From positions 44,505-108,504 of the forward strand of contig NZ_JABVED010000001.1 of the NCBI RefSeq assembly GCF_014323725.1: DNA of 64,000 nt, written 5' to 3'. Under the pieces are notes generated by a model that saw only the letters and a program-made list of their open reading frames with translations, searched no databases and was not told where the DNA came from. Shown here piece after piece: positions 11,265-14,385 of the stretch. Each line of letters begins with the position of its first letter. The stretch's first letter is position 1. Position numbers and translations under genes: made by a program. This stretch comes from Actinokineospora xionganensis (GTDB lineage Bacteria > Actinomycetota > Actinomycetes > Mycobacteriales > Pseudonocardiaceae).

Positions 11265-11344
11265 ACACTGCGGAATCGGCGGCGGAATGGGCGCTTTACC
11301 AGGCCGCCGCAGGTCCGTCGACACCAGTGCTGTTCCATGTCGGT

Positions 11345-12271
11345 ATGGACTCGAGCGTTTTGGTGCTGATGACGGATCACAGCTCGAGAGAGGGCAGCCG
11401 CAAGGTTCTGTCCCGCGCCGCCGAGAGGCTCACCGGAAAACCTCCGGTTTCGATCGACGCACGACACTTCTTCCCAGGTGGGAGCGGCAAGGTGACCGCC
11501 GTCGACGGCGGACTCCAGATTGAGGTTCCCGCCGAGAACCTGGTGGTCAGACCTTCGGCCCTGGTCATCTACGAGATACCACCGGAGAAACGCCGAGGGT
11601 TCGAGGCTGCCCAGCGGCAGCTGCACGCGTTCGGGGCCGCTTCCTTGGGCACCGACGTCGAGGCCTGGCGGGTGGCCACCGAGAAGGACCTCACTGTCGA
11701 GCGGTTCACCCGCGACGGCATCGCGCAGATGGAGACCATCAGCGTGACCGCGGACGCGAACCCGGCCGCGGTCTTCGAGCGGTTGGGCCGCGACGTCTGG
11801 GCCCGCCCGGTCGTCGGCATGGGCGGCAACGACGTCTTCCATGTCACCACCGACGAGCAGCTGAACGCCGCCACCCGCTACTACGGCGAATCCGGCCTCG
11901 GCTGGCTGATGGCTCGCGACGCGAACAACTTCACCCCCGACGGCGTCCGCCAGCAGTTCCGCGTCGTCGTGCTCGACGGGCGCGTGGTCTACGCCTGTGA
12001 GCACGTGCAGGCCCAACCCGACGCGCCGTGCAACGAGACCCGGGGTGCGGTGTCGACCAGGTTGTCACTTGATGAACTACCTCCGGAACTTCATCAGTTG
12101 GCGGTCTCGGCCACCAAGTCGCTGGGGCTCAACCTGGGCGGTGTGGACCTTGCGCTGGTGAACGGTGGCGTCGTGTTCGAGGTCAACGTGCATCCCGCGT
12201 TCAACACCTCGATCCCCGTCGAGGAGTCGTTCGCCACGCCGTACATCGAGGCCCACCTGGCGCTGCGCTAG
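11345..12271 (+). CDS. ATP-grasp (RimK-like) protein, substrate unknown
   Basis: About 308 residues from ATG 11345; an in-frame GTG at 11327 is the alternative. The C-terminal half resembles RimK-type ATP-grasp ligases: RPVVGMGGNDVF, QQFRVVVLDGRVVYA and a metal-site stretch GGVDLALVNGGVVFEVNVHPAFN. These enzymes ligate carboxylates to amines through acyl phosphates. The N-terminal region (LVLMTDHSSREGSRKVL) is a pre-ATP-grasp domain. No precursor peptide or transporter was found beside it, so a RiPP role is not supported. It ends before a hairpin at 12384-12414. Neighbours give no functional hint. Confidence 0.75.
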   Translation: MDSSVLVLMTDHSSREGSRKVLSRAAERLTGKPPVSIDARHFFPGGSGKVTAVDGGLQIEVPAENLVVRPSALVIYEIPPEKRRGFEAAQRQLHAFGAASLGTDVEAWRVATEKDLTVERFTRDGIAQMETISVTADANPAAVFERLGRDVWARPVVGMGGNDVFHVTTDEQLNAATRYYGESGLGWLMARDANNFTPDGVRQQFRVVVLDGRVVYACEHVQAQPDAPCNETRGAVSTRLSLDELPPELHQLAVSATKSLGLNLGGVDLALVNGGVVFEVNVHPAFNTSIPVEESFATPYIEAHLALR

Positions 12272-12422: not shown

Positions 12423-13052
12423 TCAGCCGCGGCCGAACGAGTTGTTGCCCAGTGGCAGCGGGGCGCCCGCGGCGTCGAACGCGGCGAGGCTCGACGGCTC
12501 CTTGGTGGAGTAGTCGAACCACCACACCTTGATGGTGGGGTCCTCGCTCCAGTCGGCCTGCTTGGCTTGGACCGTCTTGCCGCCGATGGTGGCGGTGATC
12601 TTCGCGGCCGGGCCCGCGTAATAGCCGAACGCGGGAATCCGGCCGTTGCCGGAGGCGACGCTGGCGCCGTGGAAGCCGGGGGCCTTGTCGGAGCCCACGG
12701 TCTCGTTGGTCGCGTAGTGGCCGGTGAAGACCCCCTTCGCGTCGGTGCGGCCGCCCAGCAGGCCGAAGTGGACGTCGGGCAGGTGCTGCGGCTCGTCGAT
12801 CTTGATGAAGCGGAAGACAAGCTCCCCGCCGGGGCCGGTTGACCCCGTGGCCACCGGCTGTCCGAGGAAGACGTGCTCGGGCTCGGAGCTGTCGGCCCGG
12901 GGTGCGTCAGCCTTGGCGACCGGCTGGACGGCGGCGGCAGGCGCCTGCGCCGCGCTGGGCGCCGCGGTGGCCATGGCGACCCCGGTGGTCGCCGCTGCTG
13001 CCGCGACGGTGATCGCGATCGCGACCAGCGTGCGGCGGTGCACACGTGACAT
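12423..13052 (-). CDS. Secreted protein, soluble paralogue of the sigma-linked membrane protein
   Basis: 209 residues starting MSRVHRRTLVAIAITV. A Sec signal peptide (about 1-34, likely cut in the ATAAPSA region) is followed by a low-complexity Ala/Pro stretch and a folded domain (about 80-209). That domain is close to identical in long blocks with the C-terminal domain of the membrane protein at 13672-14385: DKAPGFHG, ADWSED, KVWWFDYST, GAPLPLGNN and the terminal FGRG. By eye about two thirds of positions match. I recognise no named family. The start at 13052 has AGGGGAAC upstream; the longer frame to 13136 would cross its promoter. It is divergent from the ECF sigma gene and has a nearly identical promoter, so it is probably in that sigma factor's regulon. 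Confidence 0.8.
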   Translation of the reverse strand: MSRVHRRTLVAIAITVAAAAATTGVAMATAAPSAAQAPAAAVQPVAKADAPRADSSEPEHVFLGQPVATGSTGPGGELVFRFIKIDEPQHLPDVHFGLLGGRTDAKGVFTGHYATNETVGSDKAPGFHGASVASGNGRIPAFGYYAGPAAKITATIGGKTVQAKQADWSEDPTIKVWWFDYSTKEPSSLAAFDAAGAPLPLGNNSFGRG

Positions 13053-13093
13053 GTGGTGTTCCCCTGTTCTGTGTGGTTGTCCTACGCCGGGAA

Positions 13094-13119
13094 AGACGGG
13101 TTGGACGATCGGAAAAGTT
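13094..13119 (-). promoter_or_regulatory. ECF-type promoter of the secreted protein gene
   Basis: Read on the minus strand, AACTT (complement of 13115-13119), 16 bases and CGTCT (complement of 13094-13098). The spacer is nearly the same as in the plus-strand promoter at 13135-13159: CGA, CG and CCA blocks are conserved. The implied start lies about 35 bp before the ATG. Confidence 0.6.
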
Positions 13120-13134
13120 CTGTCGTCGGCGCGC

Positions 13135-13159
13135 AACTTTTTCGAACGCCCACTCGTCT
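13135..13159 (+). promoter_or_regulatory. ECF-type promoter of the sigma factor operon
   Basis: AACTT (13135-13139), 15 bases and CGTCT (13155-13159). It matches the divergent promoter at 13094-13119 at about 21 of 25 aligned positions with one single-base gap. The CGTC -10 element is typical of ECF sigma factors, so autoregulation is likely. Confidence 0.6.
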
Positions 13160-13180
13160 CGATGGGTATGGGGGAAACGC

Positions 13181-13675
13181 ATGGGCCGTCGTGACGCCGA
13201 TTTCGTCGAGTTCGTTCAAGCCGCTTCCGGGCGGCTGCTGCACGCTGCCTACCTGCTGACCAGCGACCGGCACTACGCGGAGGACGTAGTGCAGACGGCG
13301 TTGGCCCGCAGCTATGCGGCCTGGTCGCGCATCCGCGACGACGATGCCTACGGGTATGCCCGGCGGATCATGGTCAACCACGTGATCGACCGGTGGCGCA
13401 GGCCGGTGCGCGAGCACTCGACAGAGGAGGTGCCGGAGCAGGCGGTGGCGGGCGGTGAGGCGGTGGTGGTCGAACGGGAGTGGCTGATGGACATGCTCGA
13501 CGGGCTCACCGCGCGGGAGCGGGCGGTGGTCGTGCTGCGGCACTACTTCGACCTGCCCGAGGCCGCGGTGGCCACCGAACTCAACGTCTCACTCGGCACA
13601 GTGAAGAGCACGAACGCCCGCGCGTTGAGCAAACTGCGCACCACCGTGGCCGCACCGAACGGAGGATCGCGATGA
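13181..13675 (+). CDS. SigE-family ECF RNA polymerase sigma factor
   Basis: 164 residues. Sigma region 2 covers about 1-75 (DFVEFVQAASGRLLHAAYLLTSD, then DVVQTALARSYAAWSRI). Region 4 covers about 100-160 (LTARERAVVVLRHYFDLPEAAVA, with the recognition helix VSLGTVKSTNARALSKLR). This is the compact two-domain ECF form of the SigE family common in actinomycetes. The ATG at 13181 has GGGGGAAA upstream. The stop overlaps the next start as ATGA, so a membrane protein is translationally coupled, the usual position of an anti-sigma factor. Twin promoters in the 128-bp upstream gap suggest it drives itself and the divergent secreted paralogue. Confidence 0.92.
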   Translation: MGRRDADFVEFVQAASGRLLHAAYLLTSDRHYAEDVVQTALARSYAAWSRIRDDDAYGYARRIMVNHVIDRWRRPVREHSTEEVPEQAVAGGEAVVVEREWLMDMLDGLTARERAVVVLRHYFDLPEAAVATELNVSLGTVKSTNARALSKLRTTVAAPNGGSR

Positions 13676-14385
13676 CCGACATCGACCGCCTGCGCGCGGC
13701 GCTGCGGGAACCGGTCGAGTTCGCCCCGGTCGACGTCGAGCAGATCATGGCGGCGGGCACCCGCATCCGCAGGCGCCGCCAACTGCGCAACGGCATGGCG
13801 GCGGTCGCCGGCGTGGCGGCTGTCATGGTGATCATCGTCGGTGGCGCGGGCCGGCTGCGCACGGCGCCTGTACAACCCGCGGGCACCCCTTCGCTGACCA
13901 TCACCTCGACGCCAAGGCCGGTCAGCCTGTCGGGAAAGCCGATCATCGGCGATGTGATCCGCACCGGCGACCTGCACGAGTGGGGTGAGCTCGCGTTCTA
14001 CCTGTACCCGATCGACGAGCCCAGCCTCCCGCAAACGCGCTTCGGTCTGGTCGCGGGTCGGATGTCGCCGGAGGGGCGAATCACCGACCTCTACACGATC
14101 AATGAGACCGATGGCCCCGACAAGGCCCCCGGGTTCCACGGGTCGAGCGTCGCCAACGCCGCCGGCAGGCTCCCCGCGTTCGGCTACTACACGGGCCCGG
14201 CCACGAAGATCACCGCGGTCATCGAGGGGAAGACAATGCAGGCACACCAAGCCGACTGGAGCGAGGACCGCTCGGTGAAGGTGTGGTGGTTCGACTACTC
14301 CACGGCGGAGCCGACGAACCTGGCCGCCTTCGACGCTTCAGGAGCGCCACTACCGTTGGGCAACAACGGATTCGGACGGGGTTGA
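13672..14385 (+). CDS. Membrane-anchored partner of the ECF sigma factor, putative novel anti-sigma/sensor
   Basis: 237 residues. The cytoplasmic head (1-41) is helical and basic at its end (RIRRRRQLRNG). One transmembrane helix follows (about 41-59, GMAAVAGVAAVMVIIVGGAG), then a linker and an extracytoplasmic domain (about 100-237) paralogous to the secreted protein at 12423-13052. The gene overlaps the sigma stop codon (ATGA) and has GGAGG. Position and topology suggest an anti-sigma factor or regulator. No known anti-sigma domain (zinc-binding HxxxCxxC, RskA) is visible, so this is inference. A hemerythrin gene follows after 6 bp. Confidence 0.75.
   Translation: MTDIDRLRAALREPVEFAPVDVEQIMAAGTRIRRRRQLRNGMAAVAGVAAVMVIIVGGAGRLRTAPVQPAGTPSLTITSTPRPVSLSGKPIIGDVIRTGDLHEWGELAFYLYPIDEPSLPQTRFGLVAGRMSPEGRITDLYTINETDGPDKAPGFHGSSVANAAGRLPAFGYYTGPATKITAVIEGKTMQAHQADWSEDRSVKVWWFDYSTAEPTNLAAFDASGAPLPLGNNGFGRG

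Follow-up and report, generated by a model that had tools for sequence, protein, structure and literature searches.

How is a sigma factor controlled when its gene lies between two genes that carry one and the same domain, anchored in the membrane in one product and secreted in the other? This question is raised by a locus of Actinokineospora xionganensis (Pseudonocardiaceae), at positions 12423–14385 of the 64,000-nucleotide stretch of contig NZ_JABVED010000001.1 that was analysed (the window; all positions refer to it). Three genes fill the locus: P0002 on the reverse strand and, divergent from it, the gene of an extracytoplasmic function (ECF) sigma factor followed by P0001, both on the forward strand.

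12423..13052, minus strand: secreted protein P0002, 209 amino acids (aa), with a signal-peptide-like N terminus (judged by eye), an Ala/Pro linker and the shared beta domain
13181..13675, plus strand: SigE-family (TIGR02983) ECF sigma factor, 164 aa, assigned with TIGR02983 and Pfam profiles
13672..14385, plus strand: putative membrane anti-sigma factor P0001, 237 aa, translationally coupled to the sigma gene (ATGA), assigned from the sequence

On balance, we lean towards a pair of ECF sigma factor and membrane anti-sigma factor whose autoregulated divergent promoter region would also drive a secreted twin of the sensor domain. Our confidence is high for the architecture, moderate for the anti-sigma role of P0001 and low for the role of the twin as a trap. 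A first-pass annotation, made from the letters of the window, had described membrane and secreted copies of one unrecognised domain on either side of an ECF sigma gene. Rereading of the sequence bears out this arrangement, and the range and the coordinates of both open reading frames (ORFs) are correct.

The sigma factor scores 162.6 bits against a TIGR02983 cut-off of 141.55, and its 164 residues match Sigma70_r2 and Sigma70_r4_2 above the Pfam cut-offs, so that it consists of regions 2 and 4 only. Its gene begins with ATG at 13181, and its stop codon overlaps the start of P0001 as ATGA (an overlap of −4). Comparison of the window with locus L033 shows purifying selection on each of the three genes (dN/dS of 0.042/0.194 for the sigma factor, 0.099/0.290 for the membrane copy and 0.065/0.260 for the secreted copy).

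The similarity of P0001 and P0002 extends over P0001 residues 31–237 (53% identity, E = 1.6e-59), and both proteins contain the blocks DKAPGFHG, ADWSED, KVWWFDYST and LPLGNN that had first drawn attention to them. The common domain is all-beta and comprises about 150 residues, rather than the roughly 130 estimated earlier. As the earlier reading held, P0001 has a short N-terminal head and a membrane helix, and P0002 has no head and starts like a signal peptide. From its N terminus, P0001 consists of a basic head, one hydrophobic helix, a linker rich in Pro, Ala and Thr, and the domain.

13672..13791, plus strand: cytosolic head of P0001, residues 1–40, an LRxAL helix, a linker and a D(L/V)xxIMxxGxRxRRRR helix (conservation in 71 distinct proteins, AlphaFold2)
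13792..13851, plus strand: single membrane helix of P0001, about residues 41–60, N-inside by its flanking arginines (hydropathy)
13942..14382, plus strand: extracytoplasmic copy of the shared beta domain, P0001 residues 91–237 (alignment, AlphaFold2)
12426..12869, minus strand: shared beta domain of P0002, residues 62–209 (alignment, AlphaFold2)

AlphaFold2 predicts 11 strands for the domain of P0001 (block pLDDT mostly 94–98), and the same number and order of strands for that of P0002. A search of the 6,813,329-base genome at E up to 0.001 found no third copy. The first-pass annotation had called for profile searches of Pfam and structure databases; searches against Pfam, NCBIfam and the sequences of the PDB recognised no family or relative. 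P0001 and P0002 match no Pfam family and no PDB sequence at E up to 1, and no NCBIfam family above its cut-off; the domain profile has one PDB match, to glycophorin (E = 0.74), which we take as chance. Scans of 46 aligned members against Pfam and NCBIfam gave weak matches only, and comparison of the fold with VIA-align gave no clear structural relative. We tentatively suggest that the domain may be a new family of extracytoplasmic binding domains, as part of the sensing circuit discussed below.

The association with the sigma factor is conserved. Of 390 genomes of the family (Pseudonocardiaceae), 80 contain relatives of P0002, and 40 regions were fetched from 38 of the 80. These regions comprise the 17 with a divergent pair, not counting the window, and some of the others. 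A further 48 named loci came from an alignment search (Amycolatopsis, Micromonospora, Actinoplanes, Amorphoplanes, Paractinoplanes, Jidongwangia and Catenuloplanes; Pseudonocardiaceae and Micromonosporaceae); some genomes are in both sets. The membrane copy lies directly behind a same-strand SigE-family sigma gene in 39 of the 40 fetched regions and in the window, and a sigma gene adjoins it at all 48 named loci. The homologues are thus not scattered without a sigma neighbour, an outcome that the first-pass annotation had named as fatal to its proposal. The −4 (ATGA) overlap of the sigma and membrane genes recurs at 36 of 40 loci (window included) and at 46 of the 48 named loci. The divergent secreted copy is optional and occurs in both families: it is present in 17 of the 40 fetched regions, in the window and at 13 of the 48 named loci. 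In the sole region without a sigma gene (L065:4535–5197, minus strand), the domain copy also lacks a head and a clear start, and looks like a 5′-decayed remnant. In one Amycolatopsis locus (L162:3896–4774, plus strand), the domain of the membrane gene is split over two reading frames, by either a broken copy or a sequencing error.

Is P0001 an anti-sigma factor? Its head is the best-conserved part of the protein. Among 71 distinct membrane proteins (L054, L056, L059, L061, L162 and duplicates set aside), mean pairwise identity is 54% in the head, 48% in the ectodomain, 36% in the membrane helix and 30% in the linker, and R8, A10, D21, G29, R31 and R33–R36 of the head are near-invariant. The AlphaFold2 model places helices at residues 3–12 and 22–56, the second extending into the membrane stretch (block pLDDT 85–90 at residues 1–30, 74 at 31–40 and 50 at 41–60). 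The model therefore has the layout of a class II (CnrY-like) anti-sigma factor, with a short two-helix cytosolic head before one membrane helix.

In CnrY, which acts with the ECF sigma factor CnrH in the CnrYXH system, one membrane helix follows the head. That head is a short cytosolic unit of two helices, according to the sections on CnrY in PMC4598750 and PMC7406223. P0001, as modelled, resembles CnrY in both respects. It differs in that it carries the sensor domain itself, whereas the sensor CnrX is a separate protein, and in the presence of a secreted copy of that domain. A search of PDB sequences with the head at E up to 10 found no CnrY-like chain, the 40-residue query being very short.

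The likeness to zinc-binding and RskA-type class I anti-sigma factors is confined to a membrane protein that is encoded together with an ECF sigma factor. P0001 contains no cysteine and thus no HxxxCxxC motif, and it matches no RskA or zinc-finger family (one of the 46 aligned members weakly matches RskA_C, E = 0.025). Its membrane helix begins at about residue 41, so that the head, of about 40 residues, is shorter than the 50 residues that the part of PMC7406223 on class I domains sets as their limit; the same part gives their average length as 101 residues.

Profile matches of the head to known families are all below threshold, and we dropped an assignment on this basis. The CU044_5270 family (NF038083) matches weakly in 22 of the 46 members (best E = 3.7e-6), and in 8 of 10 membrane copies viewed the match joins the head and membrane stretch to the N terminus of the model. 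The matches examined in detail reach 13–24 bits against a cut-off of 100, and leave the beta domain uncovered. NF052375, named ‘anti-sigma factor’, matches weakly and below threshold in 11 of the 46 members, beginning in the head in 5 of the 10 viewed in detail.

An alternative is that P0001 is another kind of membrane partner and that the sigma factor is controlled by transcription alone. The fact that no anti-sigma family matches above its cut-off in P0001 or in ten other membrane copies scanned favours this idea and agrees with the first-pass annotation, which had recognised no anti-sigma domain. The frequent ATGA coupling, the conserved head, its two-helix model and the sub-threshold NF052375 matches speak against it, and we regard it as improbable. 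We therefore treat P0001 as a putative anti-sigma factor, and propose with moderate confidence that its head binds the sigma factor.

The same layout recurs elsewhere in the genome, which also argues against that alternative. We compared the ten best SigE-family sigma factors (L073–L082), namely the eight above the TIGR02983 cut-off and the next two. Nine of the ten, including the present one (seven of the eight above the cut-off), are followed by a protein with a single helix that starts at residue 40–53, without HxxxCxxC. Among the other 18 ECF matches, nine partners have the helix at residue 85–145 (five with HxxxCxxC) and two have short heads; for the remaining seven, no partner with a helix was found. 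A genome search showed that the P0001 domain is absent from the other eight short-head partners. One of these (L080:1998–2990, plus strand) is a LytR-CpsA-Psr domain protein of 331 aa with a short head and a −4 overlap with its SigE-family sigma gene, possibly an anti-sigma factor fused to a wall-glycopolymer enzyme; the other seven, when scanned, match no Pfam family at E up to 0.01. Among 974 ORFs of the 28 sigma loci of this genome, a profile of the head retrieved itself, one partner (L076, E = 0.0005) and nothing else convincing. Thus, the present system appears to belong to a modular class, in which short-head partners carry differing ectodomains.

What would the sigma factor transcribe? 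The gap between P0002 and the sigma gene holds two promoter-like sites, which add to the earlier description of the locus.

13135..13158, plus strand: predicted ECF promoter of the sigma/anti-sigma operon, AACTTTT-N13-CGTC (genome pattern search, conserved motif)
13095..13119, minus strand: predicted ECF promoter of the secreted gene, AACTTTT-N14-CGTC (genome pattern search, conserved motif)

Across loci, we searched for one fixed form, AAC(C/T)TT(T/C)-N10-14-CGT(C/A), in distinct upstream regions (72 for sigma genes and 22 for secreted genes after removal of identical ones). The pattern is present upstream of the sigma gene in 63 of the 72 regions (mean 0.11, maximum 2 in shuffled sequences). 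For the secreted gene it is present in all 22, one of them (L166) after correction of the start, and in 21 before (shuffles: mean 0.13, maximum 2). The pattern was derived from the Pseudonocardiaceae loci that were fetched first, so that counts there are not independent of it; in 20 Micromonosporaceae loci, unseen when the pattern was first written, it precedes every sigma gene (20 of 20) and every secreted gene (4 of 4). The standard motif is absent before the sigma gene in nine Amycolatopsis-type loci without a secreted copy (L054, L056, L059, L061, L063, L071, L157, L158 and L185), several of which have another conserved stretch in common (GTAACCTGGAC-like).

The exact local form, AACTTTT-N11-14-CGTC (AACTTTTN{11,14}CGTC), occurs at 2 sites in the 6,813,329 bases of the genome, both in the gap between P0002 and the sigma gene; the reversed-pattern control gave 1. 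Of two congeners, G006 has three AACTTTT sites, two of them at this locus, and G018 has one, also at this locus; the control gave 1 in each. The Amycolatopsis-like form, AACCTTT, has three sites elsewhere in the genome of the window (control, 0). At one of these three (L105:1501–2406, plus strand), AACCTTT-N12-CGTC stands 40 bases before an ORF that resembles, by eye, a secreted M23 peptidase.

The predicted targets are thus the sigma operon and the secreted twin, and the simplest reading is an autoregulated sigma factor with the twin as its clearest other target. Because the secreted gene has the promoter type of the sigma operon, the idea of competition or feedback by the soluble copy, raised in the first-pass annotation, gains support. 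The confinement of the exact local form to this gap further argues that the twin would be a main output of the sigma factor, and not only its regulator. Two points weigh against such a reading: a search for an exact pattern overlooks weak sites, and a twin seems to be absent from most relatives of the system.

Alternatively, a different ECF sigma factor with AAC/CGTC specificity may read both promoters, which would make the locus a target of another pathway. A similar promoter does occur before a penicillin-binding-protein gene in Amycolatopsis with and without the system, so that sigma factors of similar specificity seem to exist. But autoregulation is usual for ECF operons (stated in the part of PMC8103513 that deals with them), the motif is conserved on both sides of the locus in two families and the local form is confined to the locus in this genome; this alternative is therefore very unlikely.

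The penicillin-binding-protein promoter itself is a AACCTTTTC...CGTC site, read just before a class A gene in L111, L114 and L128. The protein of L111 has Transgly and Transpeptidase domains by profile. In L111:1533–3023 and its relatives, the site lies about 8 bases before a GTG start and is found in many Amycolatopsis, perhaps as the target of another ECF sigma factor. In genus g10 it was found in 31 of the 80 genomes; none of the 31 is among the 12 that lack the domain, a number obtained by subtraction. We dropped this gene as a specific target: orthologue promoters carry the motif in three of seven system-free genomes (G157, G086 and G094) and in three of nine system-bearing ones (G131, G113 and G126), and several others have near variants of it. 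An orthologue was missing at E = 1e-100 from 10 of the 26 genomes compared, including those of the window genus.

If P0001 is the anti-sigma factor, its two-helix head would hold the sigma factor at the membrane at rest. An external ligand (a constituent of the wall, perhaps, or a protein arriving from outside) would engage the beta domain and free the sigma factor, through proteolysis or a change of shape. The freed sigma factor would then transcribe its own operon, and with it the receptor, as well as the secreted twin, from the matching promoters. The soluble twin may bind the same ligand, dispose of it and end the signal, so that one domain would serve as both sensor and released trap. This proposal recalls RsiV and SigV of Bacillus subtilis, for which relevant parts of PMC4183432, PMC5014341 and PMC4598750 describe direct binding of an external agent, lysozyme, by the extracytoplasmic part of the membrane anti-sigma factor. 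The likeness lies in an external agent bound by the outer part of the anti-sigma factor, which is a proposal for P0001. The domain of RsiV bears another name, whereas that of P0001 matches no family, and the predicted target here is a soluble copy of the sensor.

In its strongest form, the idea is that of a closed sense-and-trap circuit, in which the principal output of the sigma factor, in such genomes, would be the soluble copy of the receptor domain; the twin would remove the ligand and reset the switch, and repeated duplication or gene conversion would keep the copies alike. We advance this form only tentatively. Instead, the secreted copy may be an ordinary envelope effector, such as a wall-binding protective protein, that has kept an ancestral domain and does not act on the sensor. 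Its gene is, after all, a predicted target of the sigma factor. However, the secreted copy has no further domain attached, and no enzyme family was found above cut-off in the window proteins or consistently among the 46 members; we consider this explanation unlikely. Sharing of a sensor domain between an anti-sigma factor and a secreted product is familiar from RsgI and components of the cellulosome. The portion of PMC10766802 that bears on these does not show such sharing directly.

The history of the two copies bears on a further explanation. In a tree of 94 rows, the label of membrane or secreted copy needs six changes, at least four of them forced by starred branches; several branches are long, and one row (L162) is the gene split over two frames. 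The deepest split, with a support of only 93/92, separates Amycolatopsis membrane copies from secreted ones. The membrane copies of the window genus, Catenuloplanes, Jidongwangia, Actinoplanes, Amorphoplanes and Paractinoplanes group with secreted copies, and the copies of one locus cluster together in Catenuloplanes (100/99) and Jidongwangia (100/88). A secreted-type C-terminal tail (LPxGxxxxxxG-like) is found on the membrane copies of the window genus, Catenuloplanes, Jidongwangia, Actinoplanes and Amorphoplanes; it is partial in Paractinoplanes and absent from the membrane copies of Amycolatopsis and Micromonospora. The DNA identity of the two copies of the window is 0.47–0.55 in the first sliding intervals and 0.73–0.84 from domain codon 46 on.

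Recent gene conversion was considered and rejected, as the site patterns are weak: comparison with L033 gave 4 species-split (conversion-like) sites, 57 ortholog-split and 1 cross-split, and comparison with L034 gave 10, 22 and 8, respectively. Either the twin has originated more than once or sequence is exchanged between the copies; each history hints that a match between twin and receptor is required.

Such matching could also arise if the secreted copy acted as an accessory feedback protein, with no competition for ligand: by binding the membrane copy, or a wall partner common to both, it would lock or unlock the membrane copy. The greater identity from codon 46 on, the clustering of same-locus copies and the divergent position of the secreted gene behind a sigma-type promoter all fit this explanation. 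Yet the greater similarity of that part could as well mark a ligand site common to both copies, or reflect no more than stronger constraint, and the conversion-like sites relative to L033 are few. We rate this explanation as possible, if rather doubtful.

CpxP with CpxA and HbpS with SenS offer a precedent for feedback: in each, a secreted protein from the sensor's own regulon, often encoded divergently, acts back on the sensor. The present locus resembles them in the predicted membership of its secreted protein in the sensor's own regulon and in the divergent position of the gene. It differs in that their sensors are kinases and their secreted proteins are not copies of the sensor domain. Three of the elements are already known: pairs of ECF and anti-sigma factors, heads of the class II type, and secreted proteins that give feedback. 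The domain, or its combination with these elements, was not recognised in the literature searched; an earlier mention in the large ECF surveys is possible. Of the novelty claimed in the first-pass annotation, the unrecognised domain stands. The control principle is less new, since a short head with one helix recurs behind SigE-family sigma factors and class II two-helix anti-sigma factors have been described.

Two neighbouring genes frame the locus. Directly 3′ of P0001 is the gene of a hemerythrin HHE-domain protein (PF01814; 14392–14883, plus strand), and that of a RimK-like ATP-grasp protein (11327–12271, plus strand) is convergent with P0002.

If the circuit that we favour is real, a sigma factor pathway would have its own receptor as a product, which is a compact design for signalling. 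Its matched pair of divergent promoters would allow function and feedback alike to be tested readily with reporters. The sensor domain is missing from the profile libraries that we searched and occurs in at least two actinobacterial families, including many Amycolatopsis and Micromonospora. Beyond this locus, the findings point to a wider class of SigE-family sigma factors whose partners combine heads of about 40 residues with varied outer domains, and on which we found little. Recognition of such a class would help to find the partners of those actinobacterial ECF sigma factors that lack a recognisable anti-sigma domain.

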